Source: a virus. From it: 44,555 nucleotides of DNA. The stretch lies in the IMG/VR virus record IMGVR_UViG_3300042922_000211, positions 1 to 44,555 of that record; one strand, 5' to 3'. This document shows, piece by piece, positions 15,549-44,555 of this stretch. The notes under the pieces are model-generated. The model made no database searches and was not told where the DNA came from. It saw only the letters and a list, made by a program, of their open reading frames with translations. Position numbers and translations under genes: made by a program. Each line of letters opens with the position of its first letter. Position 1 is the stretch's first letter.

Positions 15549-16835
15549 CTAAATTCCAATGATTTTTCCGATTCCCCATGCTGAGCCAAGCTCTACCTCT
15601 GCCACAAGAGGAACATCAAAATGTACCCCAAAATATTTTCTTAACAAGACTGGTACATTCTCCATGACCCTTTTAATCATTAAGGCTACTTCCATACTTA
15701 TGTCCTTATCCGCCTCTGCCATTATAGCGTCATGTACCTGACCTACTAAACAAGCTTTACCCTTATATTTACGTTCTATCTCCTGGTCTATAACTATCAT
15801 AGCCATTAACGTTATATCACTACCGAACGATTGTACGGGTGTATTTATAGCTTTACGTTCTTCACCATTTCGTATGTCTTTATCTGGACTATCTATGTCA
15901 GGTAAATGTCGTATACGCCCTGTAGGTGTCCTAACGCTCTTAAATTGGTGAGCCTCTTGCTTTTGACGTTCGTGCCATGGTAATAATTCAGGATACGTTT
16001 GAAAGTATATATTTCTTGATTCTTCTGCCTCTTTATCCGTTACCACAATGCCATAGTTGTCAAACGCATAAGGTTTATATGACTTCCACCACATACCATA
16101 TAAATATCCGAAGTTAACAGGCTTTGCTTTTGTTCTCATGTCCTTAGTTACTTTTGAAATGTCTACCCTAGCCATTTGAGAGGCTGTTTTTGTGTGGAGG
16201 TCTATACCCGCTCTGTAGGAGTTTTTCATTGATTCAGCGCCCGCTACAAAAGCTGCTACCCTTAATTCAAGTTGGGAGTAGTCTGCCTCTATAAAGTCAC
16301 GTCCAGGAGTACAACTAATTAAGTTACGTACTTTAGGGTCACGCGGTACCTGTTGTAAGTTGGGCTCTGACGCACACAGGCGTCCTGTAGCAGTCTTTGC
16401 TATATCATATGTGGAGTGTAGACGCCCGTCATCTTTTAAGAAATCCACCCATGGTAGAAGAAATCCGTTTAAAGCTTTCTCATATCTACGCCTATCAAGG
16501 ATAAGTCGTGGTAATTCGTTAAAGTCCACAAGTCTAAGAAGTGCGGGTTTACCCGTAGAGGGCTCACCCGTAGCTGTGGTAACAAGTACTGGCAACCCTA
16601 AATCGGTGTATAGTAATTCAGCCAACTGTTTAGGTGAATTAAGATTAATAATACCTTGCCACTTCTTAGGTAGTTTGTCTGATATTTCGTCATCAAGTCT
16701 ATCGCGTTCACACTCATACTCATCTGTAACATTTCTTAATATGTCTTGGTCTATATAAACGCCTTTGTTTTCAATCTTTTGTAATACACGTTCACCAGGC
16801 ATTGCTATATATTTGAATACATCATATAATGACAC
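15549..16835 (-). CDS. Family A DNA polymerase, polymerase domain (C-terminal half of a split PolA)
   Basis: 428 residues from a GTG that has GAAAGGAG 7 bases upstream. Motif A is DYSQLELRVAAF near residue 180, motif B (O-helix) RTKAKPVNFGYLYG near residue 232, motif C QVHDAIMAE near residue 370. All catalytic acidic residues are present. The beginning (MPGERVLQKIENKGVYID) is where a PolA polymerase domain normally starts after the exonuclease domain. The exonuclease is encoded by the preceding gene, which overlaps by 14 bp in another frame. The replicative role is inferred; no other polymerase is present. Confidence 0.93.
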   Translation of the reverse strand: MSLYDVFKYIAMPGERVLQKIENKGVYIDQDILRNVTDEYECERDRLDDEISDKLPKKWQGIINLNSPKQLAELLYTDLGLPVLVTTATGEPSTGKPALLRLVDFNELPRLILDRRRYEKALNGFLLPWVDFLKDDGRLHSTYDIAKTATGRLCASEPNLQQVPRDPKVRNLISCTPGRDFIEADYSQLELRVAAFVAGAESMKNSYRAGIDLHTKTASQMARVDISKVTKDMRTKAKPVNFGYLYGMWWKSYKPYAFDNYGIVVTDKEAEESRNIYFQTYPELLPWHERQKQEAHQFKSVRTPTGRIRHLPDIDSPDKDIRNGEERKAINTPVQSFGSDITLMAMIVIDQEIERKYKGKACLVGQVHDAIMAEADKDISMEVALMIKRVMENVPVLLRKYFGVHFDVPLVAEVELGSAWGIGKIIGI

Positions 16836-17922
16836 TTTGTTCTCCTTTCATAGCGTCTAAAAGTATAGGGTGTAGCTTAAGCGTATAATAACAGTCTAAG
16901 CAACAGTACTTAGCCATAGCCTCAAACTCTGCTTGTGTAAGATTTTCTTTAAACTCAATTCCGTCGTTGTAATCAGCAGCTCCTAGATACGTTTTAGCCA
17001 TGTATTTCAAACCATGAGGTGTATTAACGTTAAGTAAATAGGACGCTATATACGTATCAAAATCTACACGTGGTTCTATGTCTCTACTACGTAACCATCT
17101 GTTATCAAACTTAGCATTCTGAGCTACTCTTATAAGTCCTTTTTGTGTAAACATATCATTTAATATTTGTTTTTGATTTACATGAAATAACTTATTAAAG
17201 GGTGTCTCCAAAGGCATACAATAGCACATATTTGGTGTGGCTATACCTATCATAAGTAACTTTCCATTTTTGTAGTCTTTTAATGACGTTGTTTCTATAT
17301 CATAAGACGCAACATTTGAATTTTGTATATCTTTAATCATATCAAATAGCTTAGCCTCGGTATCAACTATACACCATTTAAAGTCACTAGGGGGCTCCCA
17401 TTTACCCTCACACATTCTTGAGAAATAATTAAGGTCTGACCTAAATTCCCATGCGTTCCCAGGTTGACGTATAACCACAGCAGGATGATACGTCGGTATT
17501 ACTTGGGCTCCATGCCACTCAAATGCATTACCTCTATACTTAGATAACGTAGACTTACCTATCATAACGTCTAATGACGTTGCACCTAAAGCAAGAATAT
17601 ACTTAGGCTTTACCCTATCAACTTCTTCTATAAGTAGTTGTCTACATGACTTTATTATACTTTTTGTGGGCTTAGTAGGTATATAACATTTAATAGCCTT
17701 AGTAAGATAACATTTAGCCATGTCTATACCTACATTCATGAGTTCCCTATATAACCACTTACCTACCGCCCCACCGAACATTTGTGCTGTTTGGTCTTCA
17801 TTATACGTTACTGCGTCACCTAGTATCATTATTCCCCCAGGGTCACCTATACCCTCAAGAAATGGGTTTAAAGCGCTACAATGTCCTCCGCACGTCTGAC
17901 ACGCTCCTCGTATAGTAGTCAT
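16822..17922 (-). CDS. Uracil-DNA glycosylase-like domain fused to DEDD 3'-5' exonuclease (N-terminal half of a split PolA)
   Basis: 366 residues from the ATG at 17922 (GGAGG close upstream; longer frames overlap the previous gene more). Residues 1-190 are family-4 UDG-like: CQTC near the start and two later Cys about 14 residues apart for an Fe-S cluster, YILALGATSLDVMIG, and the PTYHPAVVIR motif. Motif I reads GDAVTYNED rather than the usual GEAPG-x-x-ED, so glycosylase activity is doubtful. Residues 220-360 are a proofreading exonuclease: SYDIETTSL (D-x-E), AQNAKFDNRW (N-x3-D), YCCLDCYYT (Y-x3-D). UDG-Exo-Pol fusions are known in SPO1-like polymerases; here the polymerase is a separate gene. 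Confidence 0.85.
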   Translation of the reverse strand: MTTIRGACQTCGGHCSALNPFLEGIGDPGGIMILGDAVTYNEDQTAQMFGGAVGKWLYRELMNVGIDMAKCYLTKAIKCYIPTKPTKSIIKSCRQLLIEEVDRVKPKYILALGATSLDVMIGKSTLSKYRGNAFEWHGAQVIPTYHPAVVIRQPGNAWEFRSDLNYFSRMCEGKWEPPSDFKWCIVDTEAKLFDMIKDIQNSNVASYDIETTSLKDYKNGKLLMIGIATPNMCYCMPLETPFNKLFHVNQKQILNDMFTQKGLIRVAQNAKFDNRWLRSRDIEPRVDFDTYIASYLLNVNTPHGLKYMAKTYLGAADYNDGIEFKENLTQAEFEAMAKYCCLDCYYTLKLHPILLDAMKGEQSVII

Positions 17923-18310
17923 TTCCTCCCATCCTCTCCTGTAGTTTTCTATAATAGTCATATGTTGCTGCTGCGTCCTGTTGTGCGTAATCAGCATAAT
18001 TTACTTTAGCAGGTGTATATAAACCTAAACTATCAGTACTCGCTAAAGCCTCTACTTCTGCGTCTTTATACTTATCATACCATGGCGCCTTTGCAGGTTG
18101 TTTAAAAAAATCAGGATATTGCACCTTAAGACGTTCCATATCTTTTATTAGATTTTGTGTGTAAGTATCTTGTAATGTAGGACTTTCCATATTTTTTACT
18201 AATGTTTGTACATAAGTATGTTGAAATTTAGGACTTTCTTCTTCCACTTCTATTTCCACAAATATGTCATCTATGCCTTTATTTTTAGTCATCTTTTTTA
18301 TTCCAAACAC
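17876..18310 (-). CDS. Unknown protein with a 17-residue tandem repeat
   Basis: 144 residues from the GTG at 18310, with AGGAGG 8 bases upstream; it follows the previous TAG by one base. Two adjacent 17-residue units, ESPKFQHTYVQTLVKNM and ESPTLQDTYTQNLIKDM, are encoded at 18238-18188 and 18187-18137. The remainder is acidic and aromatic with no recognised motif. Its end overlaps the UDG-exonuclease start, suggesting translational coupling. Confidence 0.6.
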   Translation of the reverse strand: MFGIKKMTKNKGIDDIFVEIEVEEESPKFQHTYVQTLVKNMESPTLQDTYTQNLIKDMERLKVQYPDFFKQPAKAPWYDKYKDAEVEALASTDSLGLYTPAKVNYADYAQQDAAATYDYYRKLQERMGGNDYYTRSVSDVRRTL

Positions 18311-22947: not shown

Positions 22948-24894
22948 CTAAAACTTTAATATTTGTTTGTGTAGATATTCCCATACTTTAGGTACAAACG
23001 TGTCCATGTCTTGAATATACGCGAAGTCATTCCCGTACATTGTTTTTTCATCATTGAGAGCATGTCTAGTTCCTACATAAATACCCATAAGTGCAATGCC
23101 TTTATCACGCAGCTTACGCACAGTATTAGCTACGTCCATTACTCCTGATAGATTACCTCCATTATATTTTTGTTTTGTTCTACCATAAGAGCCTAAACCT
23201 CCCAAAGCTTGCGCATTACCACACCCACCCGCAGGGCTACCATCTGATAGCACTATAAGTATTTTATTCTCCTCGGGGCGTTCACTCAATTCATATGCTG
23301 TGGTTAAAATAGAAAGTCCATCTCTGTTTGAATGGTCAGCTGAGTACTTAAACACCTCAAGGTCACTACTTATTGGGTCGTCATAATCTCTAAGTCTTAA
23401 CTTAATATCTATTGGGTCATCCCAAAAGAATGTCGTTACTCTACAAGGTATTCCTGCTAAACTACATGCTCTTGCAATTATAAAAGCTTGTCTACGTATA
23501 CTTTCCTCTCTTTGGTCTTGAGACCCACTTGCGTCTAATAGTAAATCTACAACATATCCGCCAACGTCATTAAAAGTTTTCTTTGTAAATATGTGACTAT
23601 CACTTACTTTAGGGGCTCTGTAAGCTATGTTTGCTTGCACACTCCCATTATCAGATGTATAGCTATCCTCATCTTTAGCCGCTCGCATATCTTCCTGTAA
23701 TTTTTTAGCTATGTGCTTAGCCTTGCCTATTAAATTTTCATCTGCAATTATTTGATGTTTCTTATTATAATCTTCATTGTCGTAATTTACATACCCCTTG
23801 CAATATAACAAGCCTGTTCCTGCGTGAACGTCTTTGCATACTTCACGTTCAATACGTTCATGCTGTTCTTTTGTCCATAAGCATGACCCATATCTACCTT
23901 TATGCATTGCTTTTTCTTCAGCAATAACTCTTTTTATGCCATTAGTTACTCCACTACCTGCCATTGCTTGTTTTTTACCATATTCTAATTTTGTTTCACC
24001 TGTTTTATCTAGCATATTTTTCATAGTATTCATGGCATTTTTAACGTGTTGCTTAGCCACGTCTTGAGACATTCCAGGTTTACCACTTTGAGGTTGATTA
24101 CTTTTCTGTTGAGTGTCTTTCTGATTAGAATTATTATCACCTTTGTCAGTTGCTTTGTTTTTATCATTACTCTTACCATTATTATTTTCACTATTATTAT
24201 TTTCACTATTTTTATCTTTACTGTTTGACTCAGCGTCCTCGTACTCATAATATTCTGAGTATAATTTATCTGCTATATTCGCGGAGTCTTTACTTGATTT
24301 AGCTTTCTTAGCCTCGTCCATAATGGCATTGCCTATATTTTCAATCTTGTTCCAATCCAAATCTGCCCATTTATTAGTGTAAAATGGTTCATCAAATTGT
24401 CGCATGTCTGTTCCATACGTCCAAGCAGAAATAGCTTTTGTGGTATCTTGTGTAGTGTCTCCGCTACGTTCTTTACCGAACAACTTAATAAATGCACCCA
24501 TTGATTTACGTCTTAAATCATCATACCCAGGGCGCTTTTTAGTTATAGTATAGTCAACTCTGTAGTCCTCTGTGGCTTGCATAATTCCGTTAAGAGTCTT
24601 TATGTCCGCACCTTTTTTCGACCCCTCCTGTAATAACGTTGCTAAATCTTCTACTTTAGAGTGCTTAACGTGAGCGCCCTCATGAGCTGCTGAGTATAAG
24701 CTAGAATCTATAGCGGTATCTTCATCTACCCCTGAGGATATTAACGTATCAAAATCTGCTATATTTGCGTTATTTGTATCTGTATAACTATTCATACCGC
24801 CAATATTTACACCTACACCATAATTCTCTGATGTGTTCCACACCATATTTTTTATACGTCTTCCTGCATTACTAAGTGAATTATATTTACCCAT
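22948..24894 (-). CDS. VWA-domain protein with N-terminal HExxH motif (CobT / DUF2201-like), MoxR partner
   Basis: 648 residues. Near residues 69-78 is SAAHEGAHVKHS, an HExxH zinc-peptidase-type motif, with KTLNGIMQATEDYRVDYTI after it. Residues about 215-275 are a low-complexity Asn/Ser/Lys linker. The C-terminal VWA domain has the MIDAS sites LLLDASGSQ (D-x-S-x-S) near residue 449 and ILIVLSDGSPAG near residue 541. Metallopeptidase-like plus VWA is the layout of CobT-like and DUF2201-type proteins, which pair with MoxR AAA+ ATPases. Such an ATPase lies three genes upstream at 25468. Whether it cleaves, chelates or remodels a target is unknown. Confidence 0.8.
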   Translation of the reverse strand: MGKYNSLSNAGRRIKNMVWNTSENYGVGVNIGGMNSYTDTNNANIADFDTLISSGVDEDTAIDSSLYSAAHEGAHVKHSKVEDLATLLQEGSKKGADIKTLNGIMQATEDYRVDYTITKKRPGYDDLRRKSMGAFIKLFGKERSGDTTQDTTKAISAWTYGTDMRQFDEPFYTNKWADLDWNKIENIGNAIMDEAKKAKSSKDSANIADKLYSEYYEYEDAESNSKDKNSENNNSENNNGKSNDKNKATDKGDNNSNQKDTQQKSNQPQSGKPGMSQDVAKQHVKNAMNTMKNMLDKTGETKLEYGKKQAMAGSGVTNGIKRVIAEEKAMHKGRYGSCLWTKEQHERIEREVCKDVHAGTGLLYCKGYVNYDNEDYNKKHQIIADENLIGKAKHIAKKLQEDMRAAKDEDSYTSDNGSVQANIAYRAPKVSDSHIFTKKTFNDVGGYVVDLLLDASGSQDQREESIRRQAFIIARACSLAGIPCRVTTFFWDDPIDIKLRLRDYDDPISSDLEVFKYSADHSNRDGLSILTTAYELSERPEENKILIVLSDGSPAGGCGNAQALGGLGSYGRTKQKYNGGNLSGVMDVANTVRKLRDKGIALMGIYVGTRHALNDEKTMYGNDFAYIQDMDTFVPKVWEYLHKQILKF

Positions 24895-25467: not shown

Positions 25468-27000
25468 TTATTTACCTCCAAAGTTTACTGTAAAACTGCC
25501 TGGATTTGTAAATACGTTTGATTTATCCCATGATTCAGGTATACGTGTTTTCACAAGGTCTGTTACAATTTCACGTTCATACTTTTCAAATGCCTTGTTT
25601 ATGATACATACTTCTAATGCGTCGAACGGTCTCATACCACGTTCAGTCATTTCAAGTGCTGCTGTTATACCTCTTAAGTCTATACATTTAGTGGATATTT
25701 CAGAGTTTAAAGCCTTTTCTTGTAAGTCATGAAACAATCCAACATATAACTCTAGTACCCCTTTGTCTGCTTTAGGAATTTTTCCACTAAGTAAAGTAGT
25801 TAACTCCTTATCCCCAAGAGCAGGTACATTTATTATTACAAATCTACTTGCAAGAGCCTCATTCAACTCACGAGTACCCGTATATCCATAATTCATAGTA
25901 CCTATGAATCTTGTGGAATCATTAAGTTTTATTTTGTCGTATCCAGGAACGTCTATAACACGTCTATCATCTAGTACACTATGAAGTACTGCACTAGCCT
26001 CGGGCTTAGCCATGTTAATTTCGTCTAGCACCCCAAACCCGCCATACATTGCACATTGATATACTGAGCCTGGTCTAAACTCAACTTGGTTATTTCGGAA
26101 TGTCTCAGCTCCAATCAAGCTACTTGCGTCCATATGTGTGTGGAAACTTATATCCCACATAGGTCTGCCAAATGCAAAACTCAAGTTGTCTGCTAACACA
26201 TTTTTACCTGTTGCCTTTTCACCCTCAAGTAGTATATGACGTCCAGTAAGTAATGCAGTTAACGCTGCTGTCCATATCTTACCACCTTGATACAAAGTCT
26301 TTGGAACAGCCACTCTATCTTTAACGCTATCATCTATATTTTGGTCTTTTCTAAATGCAGACAAATCGTCTAGTAATGAACTTGATACTCCTTGAGATTC
26401 TAAGTAACTTCTTAATGTAACTTTCTTTTTCATTGGCTGTGCCTCCATAGGGTTTGATTTTAAAATTTGTTGTTTAACTTCTTCTTTAGCTTGCTCAAAT
26501 TGTGTTTGATATGCTGTTGCAGATGACGGGGTTGTAAACGTATTAGACGCTACGGTTGTATTCTTTGTATTTACTGATTCCTCAGTTGCGACTGCTACAT
26601 TACTTTTCCCTGTTATTACTTCTGACGCACCTGACATTGATGACTGCATAGCTTGAAGTGCCTTTATATCATCATCTGAAACGGATATAACGTCGAAATT
26701 ACTTGCTGCGTATTTATTCCAACGCCCCTCATCACTTTTTACTCTTAATGTTCCTGTACTATCCAGTTTTGCAGAATACTCCGCTCCTTTAGTTAGTGAT
26801 TTAATTGTGTCCACCTTACATCTTAATTTCATATTACTTTCCTCCTTAAGTTCTATACACCAATTTTTAGTTATCGTATATGGTAATGTACTTTCAATAA
26901 AATCTTTTTCATAACCGTTACATGTATCTACCCATTTATCATTAGCAAATATGGGTTCTAACTTTCCAAGCGTTTCTTTATCAAATACAAGTATCCCCAT
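25468..27000 (-). CDS. MoxR/CobS-like AAA+ ATPase
   Basis: 510 residues. The AAA+ core begins near residue 245: HILLEGEKATGKNVLADNL (Walker A), FGVLDEINMA (Walker B), FIGTMNYGYTG (sensor 1), NEALASRFVIINVP (Arg finger). These are MoxR/AAA_5 features. The N-terminus holds a small SH3-like domain starting MKLRCKVDTIKSLTKGAEY. Two in-frame starts each have a strong site: ATG 27000 (AGGAGG, 5-base gap) and ATG 26832 (AAGGAGG, 8-base gap), the latter right before that domain. It is likely the motor partner of the VWA/HExxH protein at 22948. Confidence 0.88.
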   Translation of the reverse strand: MGILVFDKETLGKLEPIFANDKWVDTCNGYEKDFIESTLPYTITKNWCIELKEESNMKLRCKVDTIKSLTKGAEYSAKLDSTGTLRVKSDEGRWNKYAASNFDVISVSDDDIKALQAMQSSMSGASEVITGKSNVAVATEESVNTKNTTVASNTFTTPSSATAYQTQFEQAKEEVKQQILKSNPMEAQPMKKKVTLRSYLESQGVSSSLLDDLSAFRKDQNIDDSVKDRVAVPKTLYQGGKIWTAALTALLTGRHILLEGEKATGKNVLADNLSFAFGRPMWDISFHTHMDASSLIGAETFRNNQVEFRPGSVYQCAMYGGFGVLDEINMAKPEASAVLHSVLDDRRVIDVPGYDKIKLNDSTRFIGTMNYGYTGTRELNEALASRFVIINVPALGDKELTTLLSGKIPKADKGVLELYVGLFHDLQEKALNSEISTKCIDLRGITAALEMTERGMRPFDALEVCIINKAFEKYEREIVTDLVKTRIPESWDKSNVFTNPGSFTVNFGGK

Positions 27001-30274: not shown

Positions 30275-30352
30275 AATTTACCTCCTAAAATTGGTTTTTA
30301 GGGTGAAAGTTCCATCTGAAATGGGTACAAATGAAATGACACCTTTATAGCC

Positions 30353-30381
30353 ATTATAATCGTCCATTTCTAAGCTGTCAA
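30353..30381 (-). promoter_or_regulatory. Perfect-consensus promoter of the first early operon
   Basis: Minus strand: TTGACA at 30381-30376, 17-bp spacer, TATAAT at 30358-30353. The leader of about 70 nt ends in CTAAAA-ACCAA-TTTTAG, whose last bases run into the AGGAGG of the 29621 gene. Confidence 0.93.
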
Positions 30382-30433
30382 TAGAAATTTTTCCATTTGT
30401 ATTGCTTATTGGTTACAGGATACGGAATTTCAA

Positions 30434-30460
30434 TAAAAAAATGGCTTGTTTTAGCCATTT
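30434..30460 (-). terminator. Intrinsic terminator, minus strand
   Basis: AAATGGCT (30439-30446), loop of 6, AGCCATTT (30453-30460). On the minus strand the stem is followed by a T run (30440-30434). It insulates the early promoter from leftward transcription out of the control island. Confidence 0.65.
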
Positions 30461-30513
30461 AAAATGAGTACCCGTCAAATGAAATGGATATTTTTAAAGG
30501 AAAATTTCTGGAA

Positions 30514-30580
30514 GGTATATTACCACTTTCCACTCCATTTGCTTTATATATAAAGCAATGGATGGAAGTGGATGATATCC
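30514..30580. repeat. Long imperfect inverted repeat
   Basis: The arm 30523-30546 (CCACTTTCCACTCC...) pairs with 30551-30571 around a TATA centre, with three single-base bulges. A weaker extension reaches 30514-30580. No gene covers it. Confidence 0.65.
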
Positions 30581-30627
30581 TGTGATGAAAGAGGTGGATG
30601 AAAATGGGAATAAAAAGTGGGTAGAAA

Positions 30628-30657
30628 ATAAAAAAAGGGGAGGGGATGACTTCCCTC
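30628..30657. terminator. Hairpin with A/T tails, probable terminator
   Basis: GAGGGGA (30640-30646), loop TGAC, TTCCCTC (30651-30657), one G-T pair. Reading leftward the stem is followed by a long T run (30636-30628); reading rightward by TTTTAG. Confidence 0.6.
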
Positions 30658-30726
30658 TTTTAGTTGGCGCTCAAAATCTAATTTTAAAAAGTCCAAGCTT
30701 GTCAAACATCTTTGTGGACACAGACA

Positions 30727-30779
30727 AACGTCGACGTTAGCAACGACGTTTAACGTCACGCGACGTTTATTACGTGACG
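30727..30779. repeat. GACGTT/AACGTC repeat cluster
   Basis: Five copies of GACGTT or AACGTC lie within about 41 bp (30728-30767), forming overlapping perfect dyads: AACGTCG/CGACGTT (30727-30733 with 30744-30750), AACGTC/GACGTT (30752-30757 with 30762-30767) and CGTCACG/CGTGACG (30754-30760 with 30773-30779). Iteron- or operator-like. Confidence 0.7.
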
Positions 30780-30833
30780 GGCTACGGTGACACAGACGAA
30801 GGACTTTGTTGGTTGTATGTTGACCCTGTAGTT

Positions 30834-30923
30834 AAAGTATGGGTGGATAGTATGATAACGCTTTCCTATTCGATATGCATACTTTATACGTTAAAAGGGT
30901 ATTCATGCGTTTAAAAGGTATTT
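30834..30923. repeat. Inverted and direct repeats in the control island
   Basis: AAAGTATG (30834-30841) and CATACTTT (30878-30885) form an inverted repeat. TTAAAAGGGTATT (30891-30903) and TTAAAAGGTATTT (30911-30923) form a direct repeat with a 20-bp period, about two helical turns. Confidence 0.6.
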
Positions 30924-30982
30924 AAAGAGCTCTAGGGCTATGTTAAACAGCGCGCATATATGTGGACAAATAAAAAAGGGCA

Positions 30983-31482: not shown

Positions 31483-31555
31483 TTGTAAAAACTCCTTTGC
31501 GCACGTTCTGTAGTCCGCGTTGGGTGTCTATCGTGCTATTCACTTGTCTAAGTGC

Positions 31556-31573
31556 TGTCAACGTCTGTTGACA
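31556..31573. promoter_or_regulatory. Operator-like inverted repeat TGTCAAC-4-GTTGACA
   Basis: Perfect 7-bp arms (31556-31562, 31567-31573), just downstream of the -10 of the leftward promoter, where a repressor would block initiation. Confidence 0.65.
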
Positions 31574-33017: not shown

Positions 33018-33188
33018 TTGGGTGCGGATAGCAAGATTGTGACGAGCAAAACCCTGATAGAATATAAAGATTTTCTTGAGGACTTAGGAGAGGACGCGAC
33101 AGTAGAGGATATTGTGGTAGCCTATAATAAGTTACTTGAGCAGTTGAGGGTGAGCGGGCACATTCGTAGGACAAGATTTAGTGATTAA
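33018..33188 (+). CDS. Small unknown protein, TTG start
   Basis: 56 residues: TTG at 33018, TAA at 33186-33188, with CAGGAGG 8 bases upstream. Product MGADSKIVTSKTLIEYKDFL, then EDLGEDATVEDIVVAYNKLL and a basic tail (HIRRTRFSD). The helical, strongly charged sequence and excellent ribosome site support it. No family recognised. It precedes the ncRNA promoter. Confidence 0.6.
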   Translation: MGADSKIVTSKTLIEYKDFLEDLGEDATVEDIVVAYNKLLEQLRVSGHIRRTRFSD

Positions 33189-33249: not shown

Positions 33250-33298
33250 AAGAAAATCCCATAATTTTCTTGCATTTAGTTTTACAACGTAGTATAAT
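33250..33298 (+). promoter_or_regulatory. Promoter of the candidate ncRNA, with inverted repeat over the -35
   Basis: TTGCAT (33270-33275), 17-bp spacer, TATAAT (33293-33298). AAGAAAAT-6-ATTTTCTT (33250-33271) overlaps the -35 and could be an operator or the terminator of the preceding gene. Confidence 0.68.
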
Positions 33299-33303
33299 GT
33301 TCT

Positions 33304-33502
33304 TGTGGGAAATCATTATCCTACAAGGAATTTCGCAACCCTATGACTTTGTGAATTGACGCCTAGCTGATACCTACCACAGAGCTGTGACTCAAGGTGG
33401 TACTATCACAGGCGTCGCCCGTTGGGGCAAAGAGGAGGTGATGGGTGAGGTAGAACTCACCCTTTAGTGCGAAGTTAACGTCCGTAGGGGCGTTATTTTT
33501 TT
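33304..33502 (+). ncRNA. Candidate structured ncRNA of about 200 nt upstream of the terminase genes
   Basis: It has its own promoter (33270-33298) and an intrinsic terminator (33477-33502), with another promoter after it for the terminase operon. Predicted stems: 33302-33310 with 33319-33327 (9 bp, one G-U). A long arm closed by GACGCCT/AGGCGTC (33358-33364, 33410-33416) holds TGATA/TATCA and ACC-ACC/GGTGGT inside. Then GCCC/GGGC (33417-33428) and GGGTGAG/CTCACCC (33443-33462). No long reading frame fills it; one 8-codon frame (ATG 33441) is close behind GAGGAGG. It is placed like the packaging RNA of phi29 but I see no sequence likeness. The 5' end is an estimate. Confidence 0.6.
33477..33502 (+). 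terminator. Intrinsic terminator of the ncRNA unit
   Basis: AACGTCC-GTAG-GGGCGTT stem (7 bp, one G-T) followed by ATTTTTTT. It sits directly before the -35 of the terminase promoter. Confidence 0.85.
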
Positions 33503-33504
33503 AG

Positions 33505-33533
33505 TTGACTAAGTGCTGACAATATTGTATACT
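33505..33533 (+). promoter_or_regulatory. Promoter of the terminase/late operon
   Basis: TTGACT (33505-33510), 17-bp spacer, TATACT (33528-33533). GTTGAC and a related GCTGAC lie about 11 bases apart, as at the 22.5 and 39.2 kb promoters. The leader is about 15 nt to the ATG at 33554. Confidence 0.85.
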
Positions 33534-33553: not shown

Positions 33554-34174
33554 ATGAGCGAGATAAATTTTGATGATTTAGAAATAGAGATTGACGACGT
33601 TGAGCTTGAGTACCCACAAGGTAAAATAGCTAAGACCCTACCATTAAGTCACCCCTCAACAATAGCCCCTACAGAAAATATGGCTGTGGTACAACCTATT
33701 CCTTTACCTCCCGCGTTTAATGCAAAACAAGCGCTAAGTCTTATCGACGACCCTGACGATTTATTTGACTTTTCTACTACTAAGCTTTCCCCACAACAAC
33801 AACTCTACATAGTGTCTTACGCAGTACGAGGTACTAAGATGGGGGCGTGTAAGCTTGCGGGCATAAGCTATGGTGTGGTTGAGAAGTGGATGAAAGAGGC
33901 GGAGTTTTCACAAGCCTTACAAAATGCGGTGGACATAGTACAAGACAGTCTTGAGGAGGAGTTAATAAGACGTGCTATGAATGGCTCAGACCAGTTGCTT
34001 TTAGCAGCAATTAAAGCAGCCAAGCCTGACAAATACGCGGCTAAGTCTACGTCGAATGTTAATGTCAACGGGGAAATTACACATACTTGGGCAGACCTTG
34101 CTAAACAAGCAACGATTGACTTAGGTAATAATTTAGTTGAGACTACATACGAGGAGGTAGAAGATGGAGAGTAG
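33554..34174 (+). CDS. terS: Terminase small subunit
   Basis: 206 residues, GGAGGAG upstream. After an acidic, Pro-rich N-terminus of about 75 residues comes a helix-turn-helix (VRGTKMGACKLAGISYGVVE, KWMKEAEF). Then LEEELIRRAMNGSDQLLLAAIKAA-KPDKY follows, a pattern typical of small terminases just before their oligomerisation domain. It should recognise phage DNA and load the large subunit. It is unusual that three other genes separate it from the large subunit. Confidence 0.85.
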   Translation: MSEINFDDLEIEIDDVELEYPQGKIAKTLPLSHPSTIAPTENMAVVQPIPLPPAFNAKQALSLIDDPDDLFDFSTTKLSPQQQLYIVSYAVRGTKMGACKLAGISYGVVEKWMKEAEFSQALQNAVDIVQDSLEEELIRRAMNGSDQLLLAAIKAAKPDKYAAKSTSNVNVNGEITHTWADLAKQATIDLGNNLVETTYEEVEDGE

Positions 34175-34292
34175 TAAAGAGTATTGGTGTACCGATTGCT
34201 TATACTACAGCGACTCTGATTGCAGGTGCATGTGTACTAAACCATGTGAGAATGCGAGTCAGAGAGTAGAATACAATGAGGAGGACGAATAA
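34164..34292 (+). CDS. Cys-rich mini zinc-ribbon-like protein
   Basis: 42 residues: ATG at 34164, TAA at 34290-34292, with GAGGAGG upstream. It overlaps the terS end by 11 bp and the next ATG by one base. Six Cys in 17 residues (WCTDCLYYSDSDCRCMCTKPC) suggest metal binding, perhaps one zinc ribbon. The tail is acidic. Coupling on both sides supports a real gene. No family recognised. Confidence 0.65.
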   Translation: MESSKEYWCTDCLYYSDSDCRCMCTKPCENASQRVEYNEEDE

Positions 34293-34984
34293 TGGCAAAG
34301 TATTCAGTAACAAAAAACAAAACTCATATGCTTGAGGGGAGTCCACTAGACTTGATAGTCGACATTGTGGATAAGCCTATATGGGACATAATTAATTTTA
34401 CTAACTGTGTTAATGGAACATTTTATTGGTATAATCAAGATGGAACGACCTATCCAACAAGCATTTTAATAGCAAATGGTAAGATTTATCAGGATAAGGC
34501 TAATCACCTTTGGGATTTTGGTTGCCCTCAAGCAGTCTATATTGTATATAAAGATGGCGCTGTGGACATGAAAGTCATTAAAAACATAAATGAACTGGGT
34601 AGTGCAGAGTTTATAAAGGAATTTATACACGTTGCTATTGGTGGTGTAGGGCTAGTTAATAAATTAGACCCGTCCTTTAAGTACGACCCTGCAAGAGAGG
34701 GCTTTAAAGGTAAGTTTGCAGACGTTTTAGCTAAGCGTAATAAAACAGTCTTAGCTTATAGCAAAGCTGAGGGTAAATCTTATTTGTTAGTACGACCTAG
34801 TATATTTCATAAAGGACGTTTTATATGGGAGTATGACTTATTAAAATTATGTAAGGATTGTGGTTTTGATATTGCTATCTCTCTTGATGGTGGAGGAAGT
34901 ACATTTATGGACGCTCTATGGAGGTATGTATTCCAGGGTAGTAATTCAAGAAGAATAAACAATACTGTGAGGTTTGGAAAATGA
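34292..34984 (+). CDS. Phosphodiester glycosidase-like (NAGPA/DUF2233) protein
   Basis: 230 residues. The C-terminal ISLDGGGSTFMDALW matches the LDGGGS-T motif of NAGPA-type phosphodiester glycosidases, and NCVNGTFYWYNQDG near residue 38 matches their N-terminal NG-x-F site. KTVLAYSKAEGKSYLLVR fits the central strands. It shares the fold type with the N-terminus of the endolysin, whose DGG motif is lost. It has no signal peptide, so it may act as a virion part or on an intracellular sugar-phosphodiester. Its place between terS and terL is odd for such an enzyme. Confidence 0.7.
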   Translation: MAKYSVTKNKTHMLEGSPLDLIVDIVDKPIWDIINFTNCVNGTFYWYNQDGTTYPTSILIANGKIYQDKANHLWDFGCPQAVYIVYKDGAVDMKVIKNINELGSAEFIKEFIHVAIGGVGLVNKLDPSFKYDPAREGFKGKFADVLAKRNKTVLAYSKAEGKSYLLVRPSIFHKGRFIWEYDLLKLCKDCGFDIAISLDGGGSTFMDALWRYVFQGSNSRRINNTVRFGK

Positions 34985-43628: not shown

Positions 43629-44555
43629 ATGGCAGATACATCAAGGGGATTTAAAAAAACATCTACAACCAATAACATAGCGGATGACATAAACGTTAAC
43701 TTACCATTTAACTTTGATAAGTTAGATGAAGAATTAAATAATATAGATAAACCACAATACTCAACAGTAACAAAACAAGAGCCTGTCTTTAGTCTAGGAG
43801 CAGATGCAATAAAAGGTCAAGTGCCTATAAATGCAAATGGTTTGAGTGCCGTAAATTCAGTTAAAAATGGCAATTTTAATGGTACAACTAATTGGCTTGC
43901 AAACTATTCCACTATATCCGCTAATAACGGTGTATTAACAAACACAGGTGATGGAACAAATAGCAGTCCTTTCTTTAGACAAAGTACGGCACAGTTACAA
44001 AAAGATAGTAGAAAATATTATTTTCAAGGAAAAGTTAGAGTTACAAATGCAAATTGTACAGTGATTACTATAAATGATGGATTTGGTAGTGGTGCTGTTC
44101 AAAATAGTCCTGAATCAAATAAATGGTACACTGTGTCAGGTATTAAAACCATAACTCAAGGTACAATCGTTTATGTTAGTCATGTCTATGCAGACGCAGC
44201 AACAGCAAACGGAAAAGTCATGGAAGTTAAAGAAGTTATGGCAATCGACCTAACAACTATTTTCGGTGCAGGAAATGAGCCAACAAAAGAACAATGCGAC
44301 TTAATGTTTGCTAATTACTTTGATGGCATAGGTAGTGTAAATGATGTTAAGATTAAGAGTGTTGGGAAGAATTTGTTTGATGTGAATGATGTTATAAATG
44401 CTGTTAATGATAAAACTAAAGCCTACTTATCAGTTATAGATGGGAAAAATGTTTTAGTGTTAAATTCTCCAAATTCGACTTTTTTTACATCATTAAAACC
44501 TAACACACAGTACACATTTAAAGCTAGTTGTAGAAAAGCATTAGATAATGCTAAT
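43629..44555 (+). CDS. Tail fibre / receptor-binding protein, N-terminal part (continues at base 1)
   Basis: ATG at 43629 with AGGAGG upstream; open to the window end and in frame with 3-1265, giving 680 residues in all. The N-terminal 60 residues (DDINVNLPFNFDKLDEELNN) probably attach to the tail. Two jelly-roll modules follow: SVKNGNFNGTTNWLANYSTI ending in VMAIDLTTIFGAGNEPTKEQ, then SVGKNLFDVNDVI. The GAGNEPTKE and GKNLFDV strings are hallmarks of Firmicutes phage fibre modules that resemble carbohydrate-binding domains. Glycan binding is inferred. Confidence 0.85.
   Translation, partial: MADTSRGFKKTSTTNNIADDINVNLPFNFDKLDEELNNIDKPQYSTVTKQEPVFSLGADAIKGQVPINANGLSAVNSVKNGNFNGTTNWLANYSTISANNGVLTNTGDGTNSSPFFRQSTAQLQKDSRKYYFQGKVRVTNANCTVITINDGFGSGAVQNSPESNKWYTVSGIKTITQGTIVYVSHVYADAATANGKVMEVKEVMAIDLTTIFGAGNEPTKEQCDLMFANYFDGIGSVNDVKIKSVGKNLFDVNDVINAVNDKTKAYLSVIDGKNVLVLNSPNSTFFTSLKPNTQYTFKASCRKALDNAN
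44407..44555. repeat. Terminal overlap, right copy
   Basis: Repeats bases 1-149 with one substitution at 44533 (G for T at 127). See the left copy. Confidence 0.93.

Follow-up and report, generated by a model that had tools for sequence, protein, structure and literature searches.

A predicted structured RNA gene upstream of terS in a phage genome and its candidate pairing with 16S rRNA

The pRNA of phi29 is a small structured phage RNA that forms part of a DNA-packaging motor. The 6S RNA of phage lambda, the leader that runs from pR' to tR', is a short RNA that starts at a phage promoter and is terminated just ahead of a phage operon, and StxS of the Shiga-toxin phages is of the same type. 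In staphylococcal phages, terS and terL give rise to the structured cabRNA, the sequence of which varies between phages (PMC10686824). RyeG, a prophage small RNA that associates with 30S subunits, codes for the 48-aa protein YodE (PMC8058203).

We analyzed a stretch of 44,555 nucleotides of phage DNA, hereafter the window, in which an RNA of about 200 nt is predicted to be encoded upstream of terS. That this is an independently transcribed, non-coding phage RNA of a new and narrow family is well supported at the level of the sequence, as the putative gene is provided with promoter and terminator signals of its own, shows compensatory changes in a homologue, contains no conserved long reading frame and matches no Rfam family. 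On this point, an earlier sequence-only reading of the locus, which had suggested a structured RNA that is made independently and belongs to a new family, has held up. The RNA is similar in size to the phi29 pRNA but differs from it in lacking an Rfam match, in lying beside a TerS/TerL system and in being absent from close relatives. As a short terminated RNA directly 5' of a phage operon it is like lambda 6S RNA and StxS, whereas its second promoter past the terminator and its conserved multi-arm fold set it apart; we know of no sequence relation between these RNAs. Like cabRNA, it would be a structured phage RNA of the terminase region (PMC10686824), but it lies between genes, is framed by a promoter and a terminator of its own and ends at ~33502, ahead of the start of terS at 33554, rather than being transcribed from the terS/terL coding sequence. 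With RyeG it would share a phage origin and a strong link to the ribosome, the 30S link being predicted from sequence in our case, but its reading frames are of 26 aa at most and none is conserved.

The locus and its predicted fold

The two ends of the window overlap directly over ~147 bases (positions 1-147 and about 44408-44555, with one mismatch), which indicates that the record is a circular assembly of a genome of ~44.4 kb. Besides TerS, TerL and replication proteins, it encodes a P22-like portal, an internal virion protein and a major head protein. A NAGPA (phosphodiester glycosidase-like) gene lies between terS and terL (34292-34984, + strand) and is present in the homologue as well. 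On the - strand, two neighbouring frames at 15549-17997 match successive portions of a single family of phage DNA polymerases (phrog_17), so that either the polymerase is split or the frame is broken, and a MoxR-like ATPase of the AAA type (AAA_5; 25468-27000) is encoded close to a protein whose end is CobT VWA-like (22948-24894). The non-coding stretch 30350-30970, in which there are short repeats and in which T-runs follow hairpins, may be an origin of replication or a control region. The sequence CTAAGTGCTGWCAA occurs in exactly two copies, one intergenic and near early genes (31548-31561) and one in the spacer of the terS promoter (33509-33522), the latter also being found in the homologue; it is possibly a regulatory site common to both places.

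The features of the RNA gene and of its immediate surroundings are as follows:

33018-33188 (+): small ORF of 56 aa with a TTG start, directly 5' of the RNA gene; its Shine-Dalgarno is very strong (-18.2 kcal/mol)
33270..33298 (+): promoter of the RNA gene, TTGCAT-17-TATAAT, read from the sequence; predicted start at about 33304-33305
33304..33502 (+): structured RNA of ~199 nt, from the predicted start to the end of the terminator U-tract, based on the fold and the homologue
33304..33325 (+): 5' hairpin H1, UGUGGGA/UCCUACA; pairing probability 0.75-1.0
33329..33476 (+): helix P1, which closes a multi-arm junction, AAUUUCGC (33329-33336) with GCGAAGUU (33469-33476); pairing probability 0.36-0.78
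33358..33416 (+): 59-nt arm closed by GACGCCU/AGGCGUC; base pairing probability 0.98-1.0
33417..33428 (+): hairpin H3, GCCC-GUUG-GGGC; in the homologue, the stem is identical and the loop is UUUU
33432..33442 (+): junction stretch GAGGAGGUGAU, immediately 5' of H4 and complementary over an extended length to the 3' tail of 16S rRNA; GAGGAGG occupies 33432-33438
33443..33462 (+): hairpin H4, GGGUGAG-GUAGAA-CUCACCC; pairing probability 0.98-1.0
33476..33502 (+): intrinsic terminator, TAACGTCC-GTAG-GGGGCGTTA followed by T7, from a terminator scan; stem at 33476-33495
33505..33533 (+): separate promoter of the terS operon, TTGACT-17-TATACT, from a promoter scan, 2 nt past the terminator
33554..34174 (+): terS, terminase small subunit, 206 aa (phrog_4044, E = 1.7e-16)

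The promoter, the 59-nt arm, the terminator and the separate terS promoter are thus all present where the sequence-only reading had placed them. The -35 box of the RNA promoter matches TTGACA at 3/6 positions, and the promoter was therefore missed by a consensus scan. In the homologue, TTTCTTGCAT and the -10 box are kept (TTGCAT-17-TATACT, with a TG before the -10 box), and the spacer differs. The probability of terminator formation is ~0.79 in the window and ~1.0 in the homologue. For the small ORF at 33018-33188, no counterpart frame was noticed at the same place in the homologue.

The stretch 33250-33533 folds with -99.8 kcal/mol and z = -6.70 (200 shuffles, none as good), and the opposite strand folds more weakly (z = -4.93). 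The RNA proper (33304-33504) has z = -4.78 and retains z = -4.3 when the terminator is removed, so the fold signal is not due to the terminator alone. The homologous RNA (about 2720-2952 of its contig) folds alike, with z = -4.44, or -3.75 without its terminator. Window copies that were randomly mutated to the divergence of the conserved core lost the fold signal (mean z -0.05, sd 1.08). A DNA cruciform or a packaging-site repeat was judged unlikely, as folding is better on the + strand, H1 conserves a G-U wobble that can be formed by + strand RNA only, and the promoter and terminator frame the fold.

Conservation in one homologue and in the terS cassette

One homologue of the RNA was found, upstream of terS in IMGVR_UViG_3300029822_000749 (L001/L004), whose TerS and TerL are 75% and 86% identical to those of the window. 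It shares the promoter boxes, the 5' hairpin, the closing helix, the position of the arm, the GCCC hairpin, the GGGUGAG hairpin and the terminator. The core is identical at 98/125 aligned positions (~22% divergence), and the long arm is wholly different. The H1 stem is identical, with 3/8 loop bases changed, while H4 and the GGUGAU that precedes it lie inside a 26-nt block that is identical in the two sequences. P1 reads AAUUUUGC/GCAAAAUU in the homologue, with a double change from C-G to U-A and a change from U-G to U-A, and its pairing probability there is 0.99-1.0. The counterpart of the 59-nt arm is an equivalent arm of unrelated sequence (z about -3.0 each), and at the arm base C-G is replaced by U-A and A-U by G-U.

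In a hand-made structural alignment, which leans towards structure and holds two sequences (too few for R-scape), 36 of the 40 alignable pairs are unchanged, two are changed on one side, two are changed on both sides and none is broken; when the same 6 substitutions were placed at random, zero broken pairs were obtained in 0.018% of trials. This should be considered good evidence, limited by the number of sequences, that the RNA fold is under selection. In this one homologue it is thus the stems, rather than a reading frame, that appear to be conserved. The longest ORF is of 26 aa in the window RNA and of 49 aa in its homologue, and the two are unrelated; a longer coding function was rejected on these grounds, in agreement with the earlier statement that the RNA codes for no long protein. 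We consider it very probable that this is a genuine structured RNA gene.

The distribution of the RNA appears narrow. No Rfam family, that of the phi29 pRNA included, was matched at gathering scores in the window, and the window RNA and its homologue gave weak matches only, far under the gathering scores (E 1.8-7.3). A scan of IMG/VR with DNA patterns for H1, for the P1 region and for the block that contains H4 returned the same homologue only, distant blastn searches of phage and plasmid collections gave chance matches only, and one genome scan yielded one distant terminase from a Chloroflexi MAG. Searches with TerL, TerS and capsid proteins led to three further relatives (L007, L010 and L029) and to no additional homologue of the RNA. 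The sequence-only reading had suggested searching related phages with a covariance model built from the stems; such a model was built and run, but among the loci searched it found two copies only, those of the window and of the homologue, with no copy in L010 (TerL 67% identical, 44.8-kb record) or L007 (TerL 73%). In a literature search, such an RNA was not found to be reported.

Nonetheless, L010 and L007 carry, at the same place upstream of terS, a promoter, a leader of 70-90 nt, a terminator and a promoter that adjoins the U-tract, although their leaders are unrelated in sequence to the window RNA. Terminators that contain GGGCGT are found at the equivalent place in the homologue, L010 and L007, and a promoter lies directly past the terminator in all four phages. 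In L029, whose terS is more distantly related, there are a promoter-like site, a leader and a terminator, without the second promoter. As L010 and L007 keep the cassette without the RNA, the cassette looks older than the structured RNA, which would then be a lineage-specific filling. The short leader RNA of L010 (7022-7096) contains a single-stranded CUCCUUUU; this sequence looks like the 16S tail, whereas the window RNA has the complement of that tail.

The 16S rRNA complement and possible functions

With the common bacterial form of the 16S rRNA 3' tail, which was taken from general knowledge because the window is not tied to a host and which may not be that of the host, the stretch 33432-33442 gives a duplex of -19.2 kcal/mol, the strongest on either strand of the 44.5-kb window, and the homologous stretch GGAAGGUGGUGAU (n = 2 homologous sites), with its changed sequence, gives -18.4 kcal/mol, the strongest of that contig. 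As a reference, the ribosome-binding sites of four genes (two other window ORFs and terS of both phages) gave -10.0 to -11.5 kcal/mol, and that of the small ORF with the TTG start gave -18.2 kcal/mol. Random editing to the extent seen in the homologue keeps such strength in 0.5% of trials, or in 2.8% when the editing is purine-biased. The complement ends exactly where H4 starts, and the H4 stem holds GUG 33445, the only well-spaced start codon. In the window, the complement is predicted to be only partly open, and in the homologue part of it (AAGGU) is predicted to be paired with ACCUU at a probability of ~0.8, so that binding would need displacement. The short leaders of the next relatives do not contain the complement.

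We favour, at a probability of roughly one in three, a mechanism in which the RNA binds 30S subunits without productive initiation, because the strong complement is kept and abuts a hairpin that holds the start codon, the last step being the one that we infer. The RNA would work in trans, with the junction stretch (GAGGAGGUGAU here, GGAAGGUGGUGAU in the homologue) as its active site. Its pairing would involve 11-13 bases of the 3' tail of 16S rRNA and would capture free 30S subunits, and H4, directly 3' of it, would lock the well-spaced start codon and leave no useful translation start. Withheld from mRNAs, the captured subunits would alter the choice of the messages that are translated. The earlier suggestion that GAGGAGG titrates ribosomes has accordingly gained its best footing in the complement, which is kept despite sequence change and is the best-supported functional lead, while the capture itself is predicted. 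Its fullest form, in which a phage RNA that is not an mRNA would take over translation by capturing host 30S subunits through an 11-13 bp 16S duplex in a rigid junction beside an initiation-blocking hairpin, is at present doubtful. Alternatively, the purine-rich stretch may serve as a ribosome-binding site or merely as the partner of ACC in the junction.

Other readings should be considered alongside 30S capture. It is possible, if somewhat doubtful, that the RNA acts in trans, as a small RNA or a protein-binding RNA, on a target other than the ribosome (an mRNA of the host or of the phage, a nuclease, RNA polymerase or a defence sensor), in which case the purine-rich stretch would be incidental or belong to the junction fold. 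An independent unit with a conserved fold is consistent with this, the invariant H4 loop GUAGAA and the H1 region could contact protein or RNA, and the unrelated short terminated RNAs at the same place in relatives are as expected of fast-evolving host-directed RNAs; however, such a target does not account for the fact that, in both sequences, the strongest 16S complement sits here and is kept despite sequence change. A packaging RNA like the phi29 pRNA, a part of the DNA-packaging motor, had also been proposed, and we now regard it as very improbable: its position beside the terminase genes is all that speaks for it, whereas TerS, TerL and a P22-like portal are all encoded in this phage, no Rfam match was obtained with the pRNA family included, and the RNA is missing in two close relatives with homologous terminases (TerL 67-73% identical).

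A cis-acting leader of the late operon, at whose terminator polymerase would stop until an antitermination signal released it into terS, would follow the lambda pR'-6S RNA-tR' type. The leader that gives lambda 6S RNA is similar in length to the window RNA, and a promoter, a leader and an intrinsic terminator directly 5' of terS are found in the window and three relatives, with a similar arrangement in the more distant L029. The second promoter, however, bypasses the terminator in all four phages, so the operon is not dependent on read-through, and no antiterminator protein was recognised among the scanned proteins. Nor is there a conserved, mutually exclusive antiterminator, as the alternative fold of the window is missing from the homologue, which also led us to reject a riboswitch or attenuator of that kind. 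We thus find a late leader unlikely. A minute mRNA or minigene, in which the Shine-Dalgarno would serve AUG 33441 (MGEVELTL) or GUG 33445 (GUG AGG UAG, two codons), has a precedent in RyeG, a prophage RNA that was reclassified as a small mRNA after its association with ribosomes had been found (PMC8058203). The strong Shine-Dalgarno, the GUG spacing of 6 nt and the identity of both start codons in the homologue agree with it, but AUG 33441 overlaps the complement and GUG 33445 and its codons lie within the stem and loop of H4. Moreover, the frames end differently (8 vs 12 aa), no synonymous changes point to coding, and MGEVELT is common to the two only as identical H4 nucleotides rather than as a conserved translated frame, all of which makes a minigene quite unlikely.

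Implications for phage RNAs

Phages are known to target host ribosomes by means of proteins. If 30S capture is true, the direct pairing of an RNA with the 16S tail would give them another route to the same target and a simple means of tuning translation, and among the readings of the function of this RNA, the ribosome lead appears the most testable. As the promoter-leader-terminator-promoter position before terS recurs in relatives, it can be searched for in other phages. The 30S reading aside, the locus would add one more RNA family of conserved structure to the few phage RNAs that are known.
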